Assembly: GCF_900460245.1 (NCBI RefSeq)
Contig: NZ_UHIP01000001.1
Span: 1,550,001 to 1,614,000 of the forward strand
Direction of reading: 5' to 3'
DNA length: 64,000 nucleotides
Origin: Vibrio fluvialis
GTDB taxonomy: Bacteria; Pseudomonadota; Gammaproteobacteria; Enterobacterales; Vibrionaceae
Shown here: one piece after another, positions 41,089-51,888 of the stretch
Layout of the letters: each line of letters begins with the position of its first letter
How positions within the stretch are numbered: position 1 is the first letter of the stretch
Notes under the pieces: generated by a model
What the model was told of the DNA's origin: nothing
The model's input: only the letters and a program-made list of their open reading frames with translations
Databases searched by the model: none
Program-made: the position numbers and the translations under genes

Positions 41089-42606
41089 TTAGTCAGCAAT
41101 TGAGACCTGATTTCGCCCTTTTGCTTTACTTTCGTACAACATAGTGTCGGCGCGTTGCAACAGTTCCTGCTCGGAATACCCTTCATTGATGGCCGCCCCG
41201 ATACTCAGCGAAACCGAAAGCTGGTGATAATCGGTGTCAAAGCGGCTTAACTCCACTGTGCGCCGAATCGTTTCCAGATAGCTCTTCAATTGCTCTGGCT
41301 CCGTCACATGACAGAGTATCGAAAACTCATCACCACCAGTGCGGACAAAAATATCCTCCGGATCAAGCAGAGTTTCGATGGTTTTCGTCACAGCAACCAG
41401 CACCTGATCCCCGGCCAGATGGCTGTAGCGGTCGTTAATCGATTTGAAGTTGTCAATGTCAAAACTGACCAGAGTAAATGGCTTCTGGTCGCGCACATAC
41501 ACATCGAGAATCCGGTTAAACGCGCGGCGGTTGAAAATACCCGTCAAGCTGTCGTGTTCTACCATAAAACGCAGCTCTTTGGTCCGTTCTTCCAATTTGG
41601 AATTGAGCGTCTCTTTTTCACGGATCAGCAAATGGCTCACAAAACCCAACAGCAACGCAATCATGCTGCCACCAATACCAAGCCCAATCAGTACCCATTT
41701 ATCATTCTGAGTCAACGGCTGAGGGAGGCGAAAATCCACCAACCATTCGCGATTCGGCAATTCAACTCTACGAGTCACCTGAAGGCCTTCACCGTGAATC
41801 CAGTTGTTGCTCTGATAGAGCACCGGATCATCTTCAGAATCAAAACCAGTATCGACCACACGCAGTGCCATCTGGTGCTCTGCGGCCGTTTTGAGAACCA
41901 ATTCATCAAAGTAGACCGACAGACGAATTACACCCACCATCACACCCAGTAAATGATGACGATACTGATCAAACACCGGATGATAAATCAGTAATCCATC
42001 TTTGGGGGTTGACGAGTCTCGGCCATCCTGAAGGAGCCGAATTTTGTCAGAGACACTGGGATTGGTAGTGGTTGAAATATAGTCCAACACGAATTCAAAG
42101 CGTTTACGTGATGAATAAAAGCCCAGCAGGTCGATGTTTACTGGCGTCCGGGGAAAAATATCGGTCACCGCAAAGATAGGCTCACCTTTCAGTTGATAAC
42201 CATATACGATTTTACCGCCTTCAAGCACCGTATAAATCGTAAAGCCTGGATAACGTTTTGCCATCTTGGCTTCATAGGCTGGTATATCTTGGACTTCGAT
42301 TCGCTGTAACCACTGCAAACCGATTAAACTTTTTGAACCAGAGAGAACGTCACTGGCGTAAATGCGAAAACGACTCCAATTCATCGGACTGACGCTGTGA
42401 AAGAAATTGGCACCTGAACCGATGAAATGAATATCACTGTTCACAAACTGCTGCAGTGATTGCACCTGTCGATCCGCCAAGTTCTCAAACATCGTTTTGG
42501 TATAACGCTGCTGCACCAGATAAGCCACAGAGACAACACCAACGGTAAACAATAAAGTGAGCAAAGTAATGCTAAATGGCAGGAAATTTTTGAATTTTTT
42601 AGTCAT
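41089..42606 (-). CDS. Diguanylate cyclase with CHASE sensor domain
   Basis: 505 residues. Two membrane helices, about 9-30 and 303-327, bracket a periplasmic CHASE domain (about 75-230; LIGLQWLQRIEVQDIPAYEAKM is typical). A GGDEF domain occupies about 345-505, with FDIDNFKSINDRYSHLAGD and an intact active site TGGDEF, so it should make cyclic-di-GMP. The inhibitory RxxD position reads DPED, so product inhibition through that site is not expected. CHASE domains sense small extracellular ligands, unknown here. The ATG is followed by a basic stretch KKFKNF before the first helix. Confidence 0.92.
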   Translation of the reverse strand: MTKKFKNFLPFSITLLTLLFTVGVVSVAYLVQQRYTKTMFENLADRQVQSLQQFVNSDIHFIGSGANFFHSVSPMNWSRFRIYASDVLSGSKSLIGLQWLQRIEVQDIPAYEAKMAKRYPGFTIYTVLEGGKIVYGYQLKGEPIFAVTDIFPRTPVNIDLLGFYSSRKRFEFVLDYISTTTNPSVSDKIRLLQDGRDSSTPKDGLLIYHPVFDQYRHHLLGVMVGVIRLSVYFDELVLKTAAEHQMALRVVDTGFDSEDDPVLYQSNNWIHGEGLQVTRRVELPNREWLVDFRLPQPLTQNDKWVLIGLGIGGSMIALLLGFVSHLLIREKETLNSKLEERTKELRFMVEHDSLTGIFNRRAFNRILDVYVRDQKPFTLVSFDIDNFKSINDRYSHLAGDQVLVAVTKTIETLLDPEDIFVRTGGDEFSILCHVTEPEQLKSYLETIRRTVELSRFDTDYHQLSVSLSIGAAINEGYSEQELLQRADTMLYESKAKGRNQVSIAD

Positions 42607-42947
42607 AAAGCCTGAAACTTAACGGTAGATAGGTTGTGTTTACCTTTAACTCTCTAGCACGTCAACAACCCATTTAACAATCTATTGATATGACTCAAAT
42701 TACATAAAAATTCTAACTATCAGATGACACATGATGCGTAATAAACTGCGCTCATTTATGTTAGCACTGACATTTTGTTTAAAAGATCGGCTATCAAACC
42801 AGTTAGAAAGTGAGAATCTGCCTTTTCTGCAAGCCTTGAGCCTTGAATATGGTAATATCCGCCCTTATTTTTTGCTAAATTCTGACTATTCTGTGCAATG
42901 GATTTTACAACCGTTCATTGCCTACCTACATCTACAGAGATTTCATC
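42607..42947. other. Gap between the CHASE cyclase gene and the DUF2760-Hsp70 operon
   Basis: 341 bases. The left part is A+T-rich and carries the divergent cyclase promoter; the right part has a good sigma-70 candidate before the DUF2760 gene. An open frame at 42731-43087 has no plausible ribosome binding site and is not accepted. Confidence 0.6.
42842..42871 (+). promoter_or_regulatory. Promoter candidate of the DUF2760-Hsp70 operon
   Basis: TTGAAT (42843-42848), 17-base spacer, TATTTT (42866-42871) gives a sigma-70 promoter. The same bases can be read as a weaker heat-shock sigma-32 type: CTTGAA, 14-base spacer, CCCTTATTT against CCCCATNT. Confidence 0.45.
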
Positions 42948-43580
42948 ATGAACTTCGATTTACATTTGATTCCAACAACCTTCGATATGCTTCATGCCGG
43001 TTTAGCTGCATCCAGCGTCCTTTTGCTGATCCTTGCGGTATCACGCAAGTCGAAAATCATCGAGAAAGTCGTAGAGAAGCCGGTTGAAAAAATCGTCGAA
43101 GTGGAAAAACCCGTCGAGAAGATCGTCGAAGTCGAAAAAATCGTTGAAGTCGAAAAAGTGATCGAAAAAGTGGTGGAAGTTGAATCCAAACTGGCCACGG
43201 CTTCTACTGACTCTGCGATGCAACTACTTTCCCTATTCCAACAGGAAGCACGCCTGATCGACTTCCTGAAAGAAGACGTCACTAGCTTCTCTGATGAAGA
43301 AGTGGGCGCAGCGGCACGCGTTATCCACGCTGGCGGCCAAAAAGTACTGAAAGAGTATGTGGCGCTGACTCCGGTTCGCAGCGAAGACGAAGAGTCTCGC
43401 ATTACTATCGCGGAAGGCTTCAACCCACAAGAAGTTCGCCTGACAGGTAACGTTACTGGCAACGCACCGTTTACCGGCACACTGATCCACAAAGGCTGGA
43501 AAGCTGAATCAATGACACTGCCAAAACTGGCGGAAAACTACGATGCTTCGATTATTGCCCCTGCTGAGGTAGAGCTGTAA
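42948..43580 (+). CDS. Membrane-anchored DUF2760 protein
   Basis: 210 residues from the ATG at 42948. One membrane helix (MLHAGLAASSVLLLILAVS, about 14-32) is followed by the basic RKSK, which places the rest in the cytoplasm. A stalk of Val/Glu/Lys repeats (units such as VEKIVEVEKP, about residues 40-78) leads to the C-terminal DUF2760 domain (about 90-210; SLFQQEARLIDFLKEDVTSFSDEEVGAAA and GTLIHKGWKAESMTLPKL). It shares one base with the next start codon (TAATG), so it is coupled to the first Hsp70 gene. The function of DUF2760 is unknown; the arrangement suggests a membrane platform for the Hsp70 partners. Confidence 0.85.
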   Translation: MNFDLHLIPTTFDMLHAGLAASSVLLLILAVSRKSKIIEKVVEKPVEKIVEVEKPVEKIVEVEKIVEVEKVIEKVVEVESKLATASTDSAMQLLSLFQQEARLIDFLKEDVTSFSDEEVGAAARVIHAGGQKVLKEYVALTPVRSEDEESRITIAEGFNPQEVRLTGNVTGNAPFTGTLIHKGWKAESMTLPKLAENYDASIIAPAEVEL

Positions 43581-45496
43581 TGGAACACAACACCACTCAA
43601 GCAACTTCTGAAACCACAGCGAAATACAGCGTAGGTATCGACTTGGGTACCACGCACTGCGTGTTGTCGTATGTCGATACACAAACCGAAGACGCACGTG
43701 TTGAAGTGATGGCGATTCCTCAAATGACGGCGCCGGGCACGGTCGAAGATCGCATGCAACTGGGCTCTTTCTTGTATCAGCCGCACGAACATGAAATGTC
43801 TACCAGTTCTCGTCGTCTGCCTTGGACTGACGAACCCAAAGCGCTGGTGGGTGCGATTGCACGTAATCTGGGTTCTAAAACGCCGATTCGTCTGATTGCC
43901 AGCGCAAAATCATGGCTGTGCCATGCTGGCGTGAACCGCCGCGACGCATTCCTGCCACAAGGCAGCCCGGAAGATGTTGAGAAAGTCTCTCCCCTGCGCG
44001 CGACCGAATTGTATCTGGAACATTTAAAAGATGCGTGGAATCACGCACACCCGCAGCATCCGCTGGCCGAACAAGAAGTCACCATCACGGTTCCGGCTTC
44101 ATTTGACCCGGCTGCGCGCGATCTGACGGCAGAAGCGGCACGTAATGTGGGCTTTGTTCACCTGACGCTGCTGGAAGAACCTCAAGCGGCACTTTACAGC
44201 TGGATCGATAACAGCAACGACGAATGGCGCAACGAAGTCAATGTCGGTGATATTGTATTGGTGGTCGATATCGGCGGTGGTACCACTGACTTGTCTCTGG
44301 TGGAAGTCACCGAAGACGACGGCAACCTGACGCTCAATCGCATTGCCGTGGGCGAGCACATTCTGCTGGGCGGCGACAACATGGATTTGGCGCTGGCGTA
44401 CCGTTTGAAGATGAAACTGGCACAGGAAGGCAAAGAGCTGCAACCTTGGCAAGTTCAAGCCATGACTCACGCTTGCCGTGACGCCAAAGAAGCGCTGCTG
44501 AGCGATTCGGAACTGCAATCGGTGCCGATCGTGGTGCCAAGTCGTGGCTCTAAACTGCTGGGCGCAACGCTGAAAACGGAACTGACCAAGCAGGAAGTTC
44601 AGCAAACACTGGTAGACGGTTTCTTCCCACAAGTGACCATCTCTGAGCATCCGGTCCAAAAACCGCGTGGTGCCCTGACTCAAATGGGTCTGCCTTATGC
44701 ACAAGATGCGGGTATTACCCGTCACATTGCCGCGTTTTTGGCCAAACAAGCCAATGCACAAGGCCAAGCGGAAGCCGCACCATTTAATATGGCTGGCATT
44801 CCGGGTATGCCAGCACCAAGCATCGAATTCATCAAGCCTACCGCGATTTTGTTTAACGGTGGCGTACTCAAATCTGACCTGCTGGCGAATCGCCTGTTCA
44901 CCACGATTAACCAATGGCTGACCAACTCAGACAGTCCGGTTGCGAAACGACTGACTGGTCTGGATTTGGATCTGGCAGTGGCCAGCGGTGCGGCTTACTA
45001 CGGATCCGTTCGTCGTGGCCAAGGCGTGCGTATCCGCGGCGGTATCGCGTCGGCTTACTACGTGGGTATCGAAAGCGCAATGCCAGCGATTCCGGGTATG
45101 GCTCCTCCAATGGAAGCCCTGTGTGTGGCACCGTTTGGGATGGAAGAAGGCTCAAGCGTCAATGTCCCAAGTCAGGAGTTTGGCCTGATCATCGGCCAGC
45201 CAGTGCACTTCCAGTTCTTTGGTTCAACAGTTCGTCGTGACGATGTTGCCGGAACACACCTTGATTACTGGGCTCCAGAAGAGCTGGAAGAACTGCCAGA
45301 AATTCAGGTTACGCTACCAGTCTCAGAAGGTCGCCGTGAAGGCGAAGTGGTGCCGGTCACTCTGGCGTCACGTGTTACTGAACTAGGCACGTTGTATCTT
45401 GAAGCGATAGCCTCGGATAACGGTCAGAAATGGCACGTAGAATTTGATGTGCGCGAAGGCAGCAACGAGCAGCTTGCTCAGGAACACCATCACTAA
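43580..45496 (+). CDS. Hsp70-family protein, first of two paralogues
   Basis: 638 residues. The nucleotide-binding domain shows phosphate-1 VGIDLGTTHCVLSY, phosphate-2 VVDIGGGTTDLSL and an adenosine-motif-like ILFNGGVLKSDLL, so ATP binding looks intact. It is longer than the DnaK ATPase domain because of extra segments (for example around NAQGQAEAAPFNMAGIPGMPAP). A short beta region (VHFQFFGSTVRR...ASRVTELGTLYLEAI) replaces a standard substrate domain; the alpha-helical lid and EEVD tail are absent. It shares long stretches with the next gene, such as SAKSWL and DVEKVSP, and both differ clearly from DnaK, HscA and HscC. No J-domain or GrpE gene is near. Confidence 0.9.
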   Translation: MEHNTTQATSETTAKYSVGIDLGTTHCVLSYVDTQTEDARVEVMAIPQMTAPGTVEDRMQLGSFLYQPHEHEMSTSSRRLPWTDEPKALVGAIARNLGSKTPIRLIASAKSWLCHAGVNRRDAFLPQGSPEDVEKVSPLRATELYLEHLKDAWNHAHPQHPLAEQEVTITVPASFDPAARDLTAEAARNVGFVHLTLLEEPQAALYSWIDNSNDEWRNEVNVGDIVLVVDIGGGTTDLSLVEVTEDDGNLTLNRIAVGEHILLGGDNMDLALAYRLKMKLAQEGKELQPWQVQAMTHACRDAKEALLSDSELQSVPIVVPSRGSKLLGATLKTELTKQEVQQTLVDGFFPQVTISEHPVQKPRGALTQMGLPYAQDAGITRHIAAFLAKQANAQGQAEAAPFNMAGIPGMPAPSIEFIKPTAILFNGGVLKSDLLANRLFTTINQWLTNSDSPVAKRLTGLDLDLAVASGAAYYGSVRRGQGVRIRGGIASAYYVGIESAMPAIPGMAPPMEALCVAPFGMEEGSSVNVPSQEFGLIIGQPVHFQFFGSTVRRDDVAGTHLDYWAPEELEELPEIQVTLPVSEGRREGEVVPVTLASRVTELGTLYLEAIASDNGQKWHVEFDVREGSNEQLAQEHHH

Positions 45497-45500
45497 TTAA

Positions 45501-45524
45501 AACGGCACCTTTCGGGGTGCCGTT
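45501..45524 (+). other. Hairpin between the two Hsp70 genes
   Basis: Nine-base stem AACGGCACC/GGTGCCGTT with no U-tract. It may tune the amount of the second Hsp70 relative to the first. Confidence 0.55.
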
Positions 45525-45551
45525 CCTCTATCCGCGAAGTCGAGGTTTATT

Positions 45552-48374
45552 ATGACAACACCGCGCTTTCTGGTCGGGATCGATTTAGGGACGACCAACA
45601 CCGTCGTCGCATTCTGTGAACTTAACGATGATCTCGAAAACGCTCCGGTTGAGCTGTTTCCTATTGACCAACTGATTGGTCCTGGTGAAGTGGTTCGTAA
45701 GCCGCTGCTGCCCTCTTTCCGTTACCATCCTGCGGCGGGACAGATCGCCGACAGCGACCTGACCTTACCGTGGGAACACCAACCAGTCGAAGGCGACCTG
45801 CCACAGGTGATCGTCGGACAGTGGGCGCGTGATTTGGGCGCGAAAGTGGAAGGCCGTCAGGTATCGAGTGCCAAAAGCTGGCTCTCGCACCAAGGCGTCG
45901 ATCGCGAACAACCGATTCTGCCTTGGGCAGGTGCGGCCGACGTAGAGAAAGTCTCGCCAGTCATCGCCAGCGCCAGTTATCTCAATCACATCCGTCAGGC
46001 ATGGAACCACCGCCATCCTGGCAACCGATTGGAAGATCAGGACGTGGTCGTGACGGTACCGGCATCGTTTGACGAAACGGCTCGAAAACTCACACTGGAA
46101 GCGGCACGTCTTGCAGGTTTGAACCGGATTGTGTTACTCGAAGAACCACAGGCAGTCTGCTATGACTGGTACGCCCGCCACAAAGAGAGCGCTTCTGAAC
46201 AACTGGCCAGCTTGCCGTTGATTCTGGTGTGTGATGTCGGCGGCGGGACCACTGACCTGAGCTTGATTGAGGCTAAGTTCGAAAACGATCAACTGGCGCT
46301 GAACCGCATCGGAGTTGGCGAACATTTGATGCTCGGTGGTGATAACCTTGACCTCGCATTGGCTCACTTGGCGGAATCGCGCTTTAATCAGGGCAAAAAA
46401 CTGACCGCTTCCGGCCTGACCAAATTGATCCAGCAAACTCGTCAGGCAAAAGAAAGCCTGCTATCCGGCGAGGCCCCGGAGACGGTGAAGATCACCATGC
46501 TAGGCAGTGGCTCTAAGCTACTGGGCGGCACCAAAAGTATTAGCCTCAGCAAAGAAGAAGTCCACCAAATCGCCTTGGATGGCTTTTTCCCGATTTCCGA
46601 TTTCGGCCAATTGCCCGATAAACGCCGAAGCGCCGTAGTTGAATTTGGCCTGCCTTATGTGGCCGACCCTGCCGTGAGTAAACACGTGGCCGAGTTTTTG
46701 ACTCAGCACCAGCAAGTCTCGCACGCCGCACTGCACTCGGAAGATTCAACCCAGCCTGCGATTCCTGTCGGCATTTTGTTGAACGGCGGTGTATTCAACA
46801 GTGATCTCATCACAGATCGTATGTTGTCTTTGTTAGGGCACTGGCGCGGTGACGCGGTCACTCAACTGGATAACCCACATCCGGACTGGTCGGTGGCGTT
46901 GGGCGCGGTTGCCTTTGGCAAAGCACGCCGTGGGGCTCAGCTCAAAATTGGCGGTGGCGCTGCCCGCTCCTATTTCCTGCATCTGCAGGAGAAAAATCGC
47001 ATAGGCAAAGCACTGTGTCTGCTGGCGAAAGGAACAGAAGAAGGCCAGGAAATTCGCCTCACCAGTCGCCGTTTCTCCCTCACATTGGGTGAGCCGGTTC
47101 GCTTCAATCTGCTCACTTCGACGCACGATTCGCTCGCTGACAATATCGCGGTACAAAATGGTGTGTTGGTTGCCATTGATGCCGATAAGTTTCAGCCGTT
47201 GCCGCCATACATCACCACACTGCAAGGCGATGACACGGTGCAGTTGCACGCCAACCAAAAGCAGCGCGTTGAAGTTCTGCTCGCTTGCCAGTTAACGGAA
47301 GTCGGTACACTGAAAATAGAATGCGTGTCGGTGGAAGAGGAAAACAAACGCTGGTTGATGGAGTTTGAAGTCCGCCACGATGCACCCTCGCAAGGTAGCG
47401 CTGATTCAACTGAAAGCAAAGCCGATCCACGCTTAGAACAGGCGAAAGAGCTGATCATAAAAACCTACAGCGGCAACAAAGCCAGTGCCGAGTCTGGCGC
47501 TGTCAAAACCCTGAGTAAAGATCTCGACAAACTGTTAGGCAAACGTGATGAGTGGGATTTCTTCACGCTGCGTAGCCTGTTTGATTGCTTCGCGCAGGGA
47601 CGTAAACGCCGCCGCCGCTCTGAACAACACGAGAAAAACTGGTTGCGCTTAGCAGGCTATACGCTACGCCCGGGCTTCGGTGATGCCACAGACTCTTGGC
47701 GCATTGAACAGATCTGGAGCCTCTATCAACAAGGGATCCAGTTTCAGAATCATCAAAGCTGGACTGACTGGTGGGTATTCTGGCGCCGTGTGGCGGGAGG
47801 ATTGAACCAAGAACAGCAAGAAGCGATTCTGGCGGACATCGCCAAGTATCTGCATCCGGGCGCGTCACGCAACCCGAAATCCGCGAAAGAGGCCCAAGAC
47901 AAAGGTTACGAAGCCATGGTGCGTTTGGCCGCTTCGCTGGAACATCTGGAAGTGGAAGATAAAATACTGTTGACCAGCTGGTTCATCAGTAAAGCCATTA
48001 ACCACAACCAGTTTGAGCAGGCCCACTGGTGGGCCGTGGGTCGTCTTGCGGCTCGCACACCACTCTACGGTAGCGCGCATAATGTGATTGCTCGTGAACA
48101 AGCTCAACAGTGGCTGCCGAAACTGCTGGCGGAGAACTGGGCGAAGGAACCGATGATCGCTTTTGCCGCAGTGATGATCTGCCGTAAAACCGGTGACCGC
48201 GCGTTGGATATCTCCGACGATTGGCGCGATCAAGTTCTCGACAAACTCAAGCAGAGCAAAGTGCCGGAATCTTGGATTACTCTGGTGGCCGAAGTGTCCG
48301 AGCTGACCGAGAGTGAATCTAAGCGCGTGTTTGGGGACGCACTGCCAAGCGGCCTGACTCTTCTGCCGCACTAA
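45552..48374 (+). CDS. Hsp70-family protein with long helical C-terminal extension
   Basis: 940 residues. The N-terminal two thirds parallels the preceding gene: VGIDLGTTNTVVAF, CDVGGGTTDLSLIEA, VGEHLMLGGDNLDLALAHL and ILLNGGVFNSDL, then a beta region (EPVRFNLLTST, CQLTEVGTLKIECV). From about residue 620 a charged linker leads to a 300-residue helical region rich in Trp and Arg (KRDEWDFFTLRSLFDCFAQGRKRRRR; SWTDWWVFWRRVAGGLNQEQQ), which I take to be the DnaK-related domain known as DUF3731. No function is known for that extension. The start has AGGTTT before ATG, 55 bases after the first Hsp70 gene. Confidence 0.9.
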   Translation: MTTPRFLVGIDLGTTNTVVAFCELNDDLENAPVELFPIDQLIGPGEVVRKPLLPSFRYHPAAGQIADSDLTLPWEHQPVEGDLPQVIVGQWARDLGAKVEGRQVSSAKSWLSHQGVDREQPILPWAGAADVEKVSPVIASASYLNHIRQAWNHRHPGNRLEDQDVVVTVPASFDETARKLTLEAARLAGLNRIVLLEEPQAVCYDWYARHKESASEQLASLPLILVCDVGGGTTDLSLIEAKFENDQLALNRIGVGEHLMLGGDNLDLALAHLAESRFNQGKKLTASGLTKLIQQTRQAKESLLSGEAPETVKITMLGSGSKLLGGTKSISLSKEEVHQIALDGFFPISDFGQLPDKRRSAVVEFGLPYVADPAVSKHVAEFLTQHQQVSHAALHSEDSTQPAIPVGILLNGGVFNSDLITDRMLSLLGHWRGDAVTQLDNPHPDWSVALGAVAFGKARRGAQLKIGGGAARSYFLHLQEKNRIGKALCLLAKGTEEGQEIRLTSRRFSLTLGEPVRFNLLTSTHDSLADNIAVQNGVLVAIDADKFQPLPPYITTLQGDDTVQLHANQKQRVEVLLACQLTEVGTLKIECVSVEEENKRWLMEFEVRHDAPSQGSADSTESKADPRLEQAKELIIKTYSGNKASAESGAVKTLSKDLDKLLGKRDEWDFFTLRSLFDCFAQGRKRRRRSEQHEKNWLRLAGYTLRPGFGDATDSWRIEQIWSLYQQGIQFQNHQSWTDWWVFWRRVAGGLNQEQQEAILADIAKYLHPGASRNPKSAKEAQDKGYEAMVRLAASLEHLEVEDKILLTSWFISKAINHNQFEQAHWWAVGRLAARTPLYGSAHNVIAREQAQQWLPKLLAENWAKEPMIAFAAVMICRKTGDRALDISDDWRDQVLDKLKQSKVPESWITLVAEVSELTESESKRVFGDALPSGLTLLPH

Positions 48375-48445: not shown

Positions 48446-49588
48446 TCACACCAACGAAACCAGGCGATTCCGCCCTTTGCCTTTCGCATCATACAAGGCA
48501 ACGTCTGCCTGCTTGAGCGCCTGCTGAAGATGTTGGTCAGATTGTACTGACGCCATACCGATACTGACCGTCAGGTCGACATGTTGCCCACTGATCTCCA
48601 TAGCGTGATTCGCCACTTCGTGATTAAAGCGCTCCAACTTAAAGCGCGTCTCTTCAACACTTCCGGCCAGCAGAACGACAAACTCTTCACCACCATAACG
48701 GGCAACGAGATCACGTCTGAAATGACGAAACATCAACTGTGCTATCGCCGTCAATGCGCGATCCCCTACGTCATGACCAAAGGTGTCATTCACCTGCTTA
48801 AAATGGTCAACGTCGATGATCGCAACCGTGTAGGCTTCTTTAGCATTGTTGAGCCGGTTCGCGGCCTGCTCCATAAAATGGCGGCGGTTGAAAATGCCGG
48901 TTAGTTCGTCATGTATCGAACGGTGGTAATGCCATTCAATTTCATCGTAAAAGAACAACGACAACATCGCACCCAGGCTCACAACCGTCAGCAAGTTTTG
49001 CCCCACGACCACCCCACTGAGGAAATAAACCGCTGATTGGAACTGGTGGAACAAAAACATCGGTAAGAAAACACAAACGCTGGACAGTAATAAACTGGTG
49101 GTCAGCAGCTTTTCACCACTGCTGGACTTTTTCATATGGCGGAATGCATACCAGGCACTGGTCAGATGCACCGCAGAATAGCTGACTGCCGCCAGATTAA
49201 TCCGCCAATCAAAGTGCTCTGGGTACTGACGTAATAACCAAAGCTGAATGCAGGTGTAAGCAATAGTATGCGTAGCGGCGAAAGCCATTAATTTATTGGT
49301 GATGGGACGTCGAAACCAACTGATGACGCCAAACAGCAGCATATAAGTGACGGTTTGATAAAGGAAATTATTGCTCAATACCACAATTTCGATCGGTACC
49401 CAGCCTCGCATGGTGGTAGTCACAAATGCCAATGAAAACAACAAGAAATAAGCGGCAAACCAACCAGCTGCAGAAACCTTGTGGTGAGTCAGTTTACCTC
49501 TCAATAGCCAGAGGAAAATACAGGCAACCAAACTACAAATAATGTTGTTGAGTATGGTTGCAAACTTTAGAACATCAATATCCAGCAA
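48446..49588 (-). CDS. Diguanylate cyclase with multi-helix membrane sensor
   Basis: 380 residues. The first 205 residues contain about seven hydrophobic helices (for example NNIICSLVACIFLWLL, WFAAYFLLFSLAFVTTTM, TVTYMLLFGVISWF) with only short loops, a membrane-embedded sensor of unknown ligand. A GGDEF domain follows at about 210-380, with DVDHFKQVNDTFGHDVGD and an intact YGGEEF active site. The I-site position reads FRRD, so no RxxD is present. It converges on the Hsp70 operon. Confidence 0.92.
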   Translation of the reverse strand: MLDIDVLKFATILNNIICSLVACIFLWLLRGKLTHHKVSAAGWFAAYFLLFSLAFVTTTMRGWVPIEIVVLSNNFLYQTVTYMLLFGVISWFRRPITNKLMAFAATHTIAYTCIQLWLLRQYPEHFDWRINLAAVSYSAVHLTSAWYAFRHMKKSSSGEKLLTTSLLLSSVCVFLPMFLFHQFQSAVYFLSGVVVGQNLLTVVSLGAMLSLFFYDEIEWHYHRSIHDELTGIFNRRHFMEQAANRLNNAKEAYTVAIIDVDHFKQVNDTFGHDVGDRALTAIAQLMFRHFRRDLVARYGGEEFVVLLAGSVEETRFKLERFNHEVANHAMEISGQHVDLTVSIGMASVQSDQHLQQALKQADVALYDAKGKGRNRLVSLV

Positions 49589-50550: not shown

Positions 50551-51888
50551 CTAGCCCAGCAGCGAGCTGTCGTTATTGCAGCTCGCCGGAAGAAGTGGAC
50601 AAAAAAAACGATTGCCCCCCTCGAGCTTGGCCTTGTACATCGCTTCGTCAGCCAAGCTCAATAACGTCGCCATATCCTGGCTCTGGTCAGGATAGAGGCT
50701 GATACCGATACTCACGCCAACCGCTATCGGTTCTCCACTAATGGATATTGGCTGACTCAATCGCTCGATGAGCCGATCGGCTTTTGCGCCGATACCTTCA
50801 AAATCCTTAATCAGATTAAGACAGACGACGAATTCATCACCGCCAAGGCGACCACAAAAATCGGATTCACGAATATTCTGCTCCAACCGAGCAGCAAAGT
50901 TCATTAACACTTCATCCCCGGCATCGTGGCCTTTGGTATCGTTGATCTCTTTGAATTTATCCAAGTCGATAAACAGTACCGCCAGTTTCACCTCTGTACG
51001 GTTGGCGTGAACAATCGCATCATGCAGATGTTCTTTAAAAGCACGTCGATTCAACATTCCCGTTAATGGATCTTTCTCTGACAAGAAGCGCAATTGTTCT
51101 TTTTGCTGCTCAAGCTTCGCTGTTTGTCGTGAGACTTCCTGTTGCAGCTGTTCTCTCGTCACGATGGAACTTTGCAATGACTCTTTCATCTGATTGAAAA
51201 ATTGAGCCAATGCGACGAACTCAGAATCTTGCTGATGGAGGGACAAGCGGCTATTGAGGTCGCCTTGCGCCAACTCGGCAATTCCTTGTTTCATGGTTGC
51301 GAACCCTGAGCGCACCCGTTTCAGGATCATAAACGCAATAGCCGCCACAATAATCGAGAAAAACAGCAGATGCAGAGCGCTGGTCATCAGGGACAAACGC
51401 TGACTCTCAGCACTTTTTTCCAACACCATTTTCTGCAGGTACAGCAGCTCTTCCGTCATATTTTGCACCAACATGTTGTAGCGTGAGTGCAGCAACTCGT
51501 TGGCTCCGACAAAGTCGCTGGACACCTTGCGGTGATCGTTCAACCCCAGCATACGTTCTTGCCGCAGCAACGCGGCCAGGCTACCGTTCATTCTGGCAAG
51601 GTTCTGAATAATGGGTTTAAATTCTGGTTTACTGGACAGTTTGGCCGACAAGTTTTGCTGCGCGATATAAACCTGCTCTAGACTATTTGCGTCATCATAC
51701 TGGAGGAAAATCCAAAGCTGGCTGCGCAACATGTCTACACTACGCTGAATCTGCATGATCTGCGTTAATTCACGTTGGGTACTTTTCTGCTCCTGAGACA
51801 AGTTCCACAACGAATAGGCAATCAAAATCACCAACATTGAAGTGGCGACAAACAGTAATGTGAGCTTACGAGAAACAGAGTGAATCAC
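50551..51888 (-). CDS. Diguanylate cyclase with HAMP domain, coupled to a binding protein
   Basis: 445 residues from a GTG that overlaps the TGA of the upstream binding-protein gene (GTGA). Membrane helices at about 8-28 and 170-192 enclose a helical periplasmic region of about 140 residues, then a HAMP linker (about 193-245), a short coiled coil and a GGDEF domain with FIDLDKFKEINDTKGHDAGD and an intact LGGDEF. The I-site RESD is present, so product inhibition is likely. The periplasmic region would be a natural docking place for the neighbouring binding protein, as in the NspS-MbaA pair of V. cholerae. Confidence 0.9.
   Translation of the reverse strand: MIHSVSRKLTLLFVATSMLVILIAYSLWNLSQEQKSTQRELTQIMQIQRSVDMLRSQLWIFLQYDDANSLEQVYIAQQNLSAKLSSKPEFKPIIQNLARMNGSLAALLRQERMLGLNDHRKVSSDFVGANELLHSRYNMLVQNMTEELLYLQKMVLEKSAESQRLSLMTSALHLLFFSIIVAAIAFMILKRVRSGFATMKQGIAELAQGDLNSRLSLHQQDSEFVALAQFFNQMKESLQSSIVTREQLQQEVSRQTAKLEQQKEQLRFLSEKDPLTGMLNRRAFKEHLHDAIVHANRTEVKLAVLFIDLDKFKEINDTKGHDAGDEVLMNFAARLEQNIRESDFCGRLGGDEFVVCLNLIKDFEGIGAKADRLIERLSQPISISGEPIAVGVSIGISLYPDQSQDMATLLSLADEAMYKAKLEGGNRFFCPLLPASCNNDSSLLG

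Follow-up and report, generated by a model that had tools for sequence, protein, structure and literature searches.

What work do two Hsp70 paralogues do when they lack the DnaK lid and share an operon with a membrane protein that has no J-domain? The question is raised by three genes of Vibrio fluvialis, encoding a DUF2760 protein, HspA and HspB (Table 1), in the stretch analyzed here (contig NZ_UHIP01000001.1, positions 1,550,001 to 1,614,000; the 64 kb referred to below as the window). A 2021 review, in its available excerpt, distinguishes three prokaryotic Hsp70 types, DnaK, HscA and HscC, each with assigned J-proteins. On balance, and with some hesitation, we favor the reading that the operon encodes a dedicated machine in which DUF2760 holds two stress-induced Hsp70s at the inner membrane. 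An earlier note on this DNA had described three tightly packed genes without a J-protein or GrpE gene among them, and the open reading frame (ORF) coordinates bear out the packing, with a TAATG overlap between the first two genes and 55 bases (45497-45551) between HspA and HspB. A J-domain profile search gave no match in the window; of six matches elsewhere in the genome, five exceed the cut-off and the closest lies ~124 kb from the window. A search for GrpE and other chaperone families, confined to nine neighbor genes and one overlapping ORF (37.8-54.1 kb), gave none. The start of the first gene had been misplaced at 42842, which is the first base of a promoter-like CTTGAA element; translation begins at ATG 42948 or at an in-frame TTG, 42918. 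The closest named DUF2760 homologues are from Vibrio. On name, order and family we equate the three genes with VC1373-VC1375 of V. cholerae, and judge the window DUF2760 protein, from family and gene order, to be the equivalent of VC1375.

The evidence that the three genes form a unit comes from their co-inheritance. Profiles of DUF2760 and of DUF3731, the family matched by the last 248 residues of HspB (690-937, Pfam 8.9e-101), were each run on the same overlapping samples of genus (148 genomes), class (185) and phylum (397); for HspA, which lacks a dedicated profile, presence was assessed only at individual loci. Both families occur in 143 of the 148 genus genomes, neither in 5 and one alone in none. 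The five genomes without them include two of ~1 Mb and one in 1370 contigs, so two of the five absences look like true losses. DUF2760 was found in 5 and DUF3731 in 6 of the class genomes; the five are common to both, and in the sixth HspA meets a contig end and the DUF2760 position is not covered. The phylum sample gave both families in 27 genomes, DUF2760 alone in 1, DUF3731 alone in none and neither in 369, and all 14 control genomes lacked both. For these two families the constant co-occurrence that had been proposed as a check holds closely, with 27 of the 28 phylum genomes carrying either family having the two together. At 80 loci from named genomes (the best 80 of at least 523, i.e. nearer relatives), an HspA ORF or fragment always starts at the DUF2760 stop, through a 1-base overlap in 41, a 4-base overlap in 36, an 85-base overlap of the ORFs as read in 2 and a 2-base gap in 1. 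HspB or its start follows HspA in 65 of the 80, and 4 others reach a contig end. The order is kept with wider spacing after DUF2760 in Bradyrhizobium and in L190, L191 and L204, from a clade outside the class. The operon is core in the genus of the window and also occurs in Burkholderiales, Bradyrhizobium and methanotrophs. Separately, we observed that HspA and HspB are set apart at L069:12988-13751 by a gene for a HicB-like antitoxin (Pfam) and another small ORF, and at L189:7287-9833 by a membrane-protein ORF and, on the other strand, a porin-like gene, both recognized by eye. The DUF3731 match is split or has internal stops in genus genomes G232, G242, G280 and G300, by assembly error or decay, and in G300 the DUF3731 and DUF2760 matches lie on different contigs.

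HspA and HspB have a nucleotide-binding domain (NBD) of the Hsp70 superfamily, and their best profiles are HSP70 and HscA/DnaK. We aligned 80 HspA and 68 HspB rows, window included, with the DnaK and HscA of the same genome. K70, E171, D194, T199 and D201 are kept in all rows, and D8 in all save one gapped row of each family. According to the available text of PMC8215388, DnaK R167 contacts the aspartate of the J-domain HPD motif, Q378 is another J contact, and D148 is important for passing the substrate signal. R167 is absent from all 80 HspA rows; Y145, N170 and T173 are S, E and Q in 148/148 rows; D148 has changed to P (78/80 HspA rows) or E (66/68 HspB rows); and Q378 is replaced in every row, in a column near the linker that is less surely aligned. 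Of the DnaK/HscA-type pair R167 and Q378, HspA has lost both, and HspB has lost Q378 in every row and R167 in all but 18 of 68, the window's HspB being among those without it. HscA, which has its own J-protein, retains every one of these residues. Kept catalytic residues together with replaced docking residues suggest that the ATPase site was kept while the J-facing surface was rebuilt.

Beyond the NBD, the HspB model (predicted local distance difference test, pLDDT, 85) overlays ATP-bound DnaK through the beta part of the substrate-binding domain (SBD-beta), without a lid. The overlay on DnaK or BiP reaches residue ~610 at ~20 percent identity in structure alignments, and is followed by a low-confidence linker (606-624) and the helical DUF3731 region (628-930). 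HspA ends after the beta domain in the alignment and the structure alignment of HspB stops before the lid, so that neither has an SBD-alpha lid of the DnaK, HscA or HscC type. An SBD-beta domain is predicted for HspB by its model and for HspA by homology to HspB. The DUF3731 profile found no credible match among PDB sequences (best E 0.75). The claims of the earlier note about these proteins, namely ATP phosphate motifs in both, no DnaK lid, and about 300 extra helical residues in the second, are all upheld.

The DUF2760 protein would supply the membrane anchor. Its model has a mean pLDDT of 78, with blocks of 84-96 from residue 81 on, and shows the membrane helix (14-35) and, as a low-confidence stretch (38-77), the stalk already recognized in the earlier note. 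A hydrophobic helix, by our own threshold of mean hydropathy at least 1.6 over 19 residues, is present in 30 of 37 aligned rows, window included. In all 30, lysine and arginine are commoner after the helix than before it, so by the positive-inside rule the domain is predicted to be cytoplasmic. Membrane anchoring as previously claimed therefore stands for the window, Vibrionaceae and these 30 rows, and fails as a property of the whole family. The C-terminus reads [E/Q][V/I]E[L/V] in 100/100 DUF2760 proteins, followed by no more than a single residue, and ends in EVEL in 93; we propose that it is a docking tail. The idea that EVEL is kept merely as the ribosome site of the next gene was rejected, as close variants persist without an overlap (L015, L190, L191, L204, L221). 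PF10816 is the sole Pfam match of the protein; Pfam, the genome-wide J-domain search and the absence of HPD from its sequence agree that it is no J-domain co-chaperone. Its profile found no credible match among PDB sequences (best E 0.12), and Foldseek with the model gave none below E 0.001, the VIA rows spanning residues 1-44 only.

Stress induction is suggested by the promoter region. Upstream sequences were scored against the sigma32 consensus CTTGAA / CCCCATTT, with a maximum of 14. A score of at least 12 was reached by 20 of 46 operon upstreams (Vibrionaceae and a near relative, window included) versus 2 of 466 controls (the upstreams of further genes at these loci) and 7 of 920 shuffles. 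Raising the threshold to 13 leaves 6 of the 46, no control and no shuffle. The upstreams are related, so these counts are not independent. In a second set of 25 genus genomes, in which species of the first may recur, 7 score at least 12 and 18 at least 11. The window element scores 12/14, compared with 11 for dnaK and 10 and 13 for the two groES genes of its genome. In published V. cholerae data, VC1373 is down in one column of an available table that also holds dnaK, dnaJ and htpX (PMC5816637); we assign this column to the ribD mutant, since its VC1279 value agrees with the 29.6-fold change stated in the text. The accessible part of another study lists VC1373-1375 among genes repressed in biofilms (PMC9201469), and that of a third reports activation of the VC1375 promoter by HapR, both in vivo and in vitro (PMC10328515). 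HapR control as a genus-wide feature was rejected, since our scan put 1 of 43 upstreams beyond the 95th percentile of shuffles. VC1374 also appears as changed in an available table on polymyxin B and a vc1639 mutant (PMC5636140), from which we draw no inference.

Under the reading that we favor, DUF2760, with its helix, stalk, cytoplasmic domain and tail, would bind HspA directly and place it at the cytoplasmic face of the inner membrane. HspA would be an ATPase without a lid, its beta domain of the peptide-groove type, and HspB an ancient paralogue whose lid was replaced by the helical DUF3731 domain; the two may form a heteromer with HspB as partner or exchange factor. Their ATP cycle would run without canonical J-protein docking and be set by HspB or by DUF2760 as an activator, heat stress would raise expression through the sigma32-like promoter, and the clients would be membrane-inserting, membrane or exported proteins. 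Several observations weigh against this scheme. R167 is kept as arginine in 18 of 68 HspB rows, those of other genomes than the window's, and the HscA/DnaK profile scores lie far under the cut-offs of those families. The SBD-beta assignment rests on the HspB model because sequence comparison shows no relation of the beta domains to the DnaK SBD (hhalign 0.1), and the training of AlphaFold included Hsp70s. Seven of the 37 DUF2760 rows (four Massilia/Duganella, one Competibacteraceae, two others) lack the hydrophobic helix and have N-termini that look amphipathic by eye. HspB was not found beside HspA at 11 of the 80 loci, mostly methanotroph records, one of which (L067) extends just 324 bases beyond HspA; DUF3731 is present in 11 of the 12 genomes comprising these and that of L069, and 10 of the eleven carry HspB elsewhere, one metagenome-assembled genome giving no match. 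The tightest unit is thus DUF2760 and HspA, since HspB sits apart from the pair in methanotroph-type genomes. Finally, in 29 of the 46 upstreams the element can be read as an extended -10 as well. Selection of these included the bases TTGA, TG and TA; among unselected bases, a following A occurs in 26/29, T in 29/29 and C in 29/29. We read the element as probably combining overlapping sigma70 and sigma32-like promoters.

That DUF2760 does the job of a J-protein is plausible and consistent with the changed J-docking surfaces of the two Hsp70s; against it stands the lack of a J-domain or any other known fold in DUF2760. A bolder version, which we regard as possible and rather doubtful, is a J-protein-free machine spanning the inner membrane, in which DUF2760 replaces the J-protein for two coupled Hsp70s and its helix, with an exported partner in methanotroph-type genomes, links the periplasmic state to ATP-driven folding in the cytoplasm. 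Such a candidate partner, a small protein whose N-terminus resembles a signal sequence, lies at most ~130 bases before DUF2760 in 17 of 85 loci, of methanotroph type (for example L079:9574-9960, L088:9463-9849 and L069:9528-10004) and belongs to no Pfam family. Two cysteines are invariant in 13 aligned rows, three of them lipoprotein-like by eye. At L012:2490-3605 one ORF joins signal, exported part, helix and cytoplasmic DUF2760 domain in that order. G776 is an additional case. The genome of the window gave no match to the two-cysteine protein. This protein was rejected as an exclusive partner, with matches in 15 of 369 genomes, strong only in G136 and G776; of 13 weak matches 8 were inspected, none with DUF2760 or an Hsp70 within ~1.5 kb and several beside nudix- or HAD-like genes (by eye).

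Somewhat less probable still is that housekeeping J-proteins and GrpE drive HspA and HspB, DUF2760 being just a membrane tether or client adaptor, much as DjlB/DjlC would bring HscC to the membrane. The substitutions set out above speak against this, namely those at Y145, N170 and T173 throughout, R167 in HspA and, with the alignment caveat given, Q378, as does the annotation around two Bradyrhizobium triads, where a gene table that is incomplete has no J-protein in the 14-16 kb displayed.

PilM-PilN and FtsA are actin/Hsp70-fold ATPase scaffolds that work with a bitopic membrane protein. HspA and HspB could be a non-chaperone scaffold of this kind, which we consider unlikely. Consistent with it are the bitopic partner, extra segments within the NBD in the alignment with DnaK and HscA, an HspA score barely over the MreB cut-off (27.5 vs 27 bits) and weak FtsA and EutJ matches; the best profiles, the Hsp70 SBD-beta in the HspB model, the sigma32-like promoter and a groESL neighbor argue for a chaperone instead.

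The groESL neighbor belongs to a plasmid copy. DUF2760 matched 11 plasmid records, of which 5 were inspected. Three of the five carry the full triad, including two conjugative Bradyrhizobium plasmids, one of 110 kb and one of 900 kb (L224:6752-14366) with groES-groEL ~1 kb on; one further record carried no annotation. A Thiodictyon plasmid (L222:1-16387) has DUF2760-HspA amid genes of anti-phage, TIR and VapC type; the 16 kb shown contain no HspB. These plasmids and weak PADLOC candidate matches (6e-7 and 3e-6) might suggest a mobile module for stress or defence that protects against phage or plasmid-borne stress. Such a module is very improbable, given that the operon is core in the genus and that those matches span ~115 and ~85 NBD residues.

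Three GGDEF (diguanylate-cyclase) genes, at 41089-42606, 48446-49588 and 50551-51888, flank the operon, which lies between GGDEF genes of the opposite strand; one of them is divergent from the operon with a promoter region common to both. Two of the ten neighboring ORFs at 37.8-54.1 kb match no family.

Table 1 Features of the operon, in window positions
Feature	Position	Strand	Basis or remark
Promoter-like element CTTGAA-N15-CCTTATTT (sigma32-like)	42842..42870	+	Overlaps extended -10 TGGTAATAT, 42850-42858
DUF2760 protein, 210 aa	42948..43580	+	PF10816 8.3e-54
Predicted transmembrane helix, DUF2760 residues 14-35	42987..43052	+	Hydropathy and model; topology by positive-inside rule
VEKIVEVEK-repeat stalk, DUF2760 residues 38-77	43059..43178	+	pLDDT < 50
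DUF2760 domain, helices then four short strands	43206..43574	+	Pfam and model
C-terminal tail APAEVEL of DUF2760, strongly conserved	43557..43577	+	100 homologues compared
TAATG stop/start overlap, DUF2760/HspA	43578..43582	+	ORF reading
HspA, Hsp70 NBD and SBD-beta-like domain, no lid, 638 aa	43580..45496	+	HSP70 Pfam 2.8e-18
HspB, Hsp70 NBD, SBD-beta-fold domain and helical DUF3731 region, 940 aa	45552..48374	+	HSP70 3.1e-18

Known systems share parts of this arrangement. E. coli HscC with tail-anchored DjlB/DjlC, for which the available text of PMC8215388 gives a proposed role at the plasma membrane, is likewise a specialized Hsp70 with membrane-anchored partners from neighboring genes; the operon differs in its partner without a J-domain, its two Hsp70s, the lidless HspA and the replaced J-docking residues. 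DnaK and HscA share the NBD fold, the catalytic residues and, by the HspB model, the SBD-beta fold, and differ in the ~20 percent identity noted above, the lid, and the altered J-docking and signal-transmission residues. Hsp110/Grp170 is an Hsp70 paralogue with an extended C-terminal helical part that acts on an Hsp70 partner. HspB resembles it as a paralogous Hsp70 with such an extension; in contrast, the HspB model keeps the SBD-beta fold, and its DUF3731 part matched no solved sequence. Ssz1 also lacks a lid. The eukaryotic ribosome-associated complex Ssz1-Zuo1 with Ssb, in the accessible parts of PMC7083937 and PMC10191838, similarly unites a co-chaperone with two Hsp70s, one of them non-canonical; Zuo1 is a J-protein at ribosomes, whereas the partner here is a membrane protein without a J-domain.

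In the literature searched, whose coverage excludes most subscription papers, no paper on DUF2760 or DUF3731 was found, 'DnaK-related protein' and the Pfam numbers occurred in the accessible text as table entries only, and no title among the matches listed for lidless, non-canonical or membrane-anchored Hsp70s named a bacterial Hsp70. The triad looks like a heat-stress folding machine not characterized in that literature. The two Hsp70s of the operon are further types, co-varying with a membrane protein and stripped of key J contacts. If our reading is true, an Hsp70 cycle driven by something besides a J-domain becomes directly testable, and the operon would be a candidate for membrane-side heat-stress folding.

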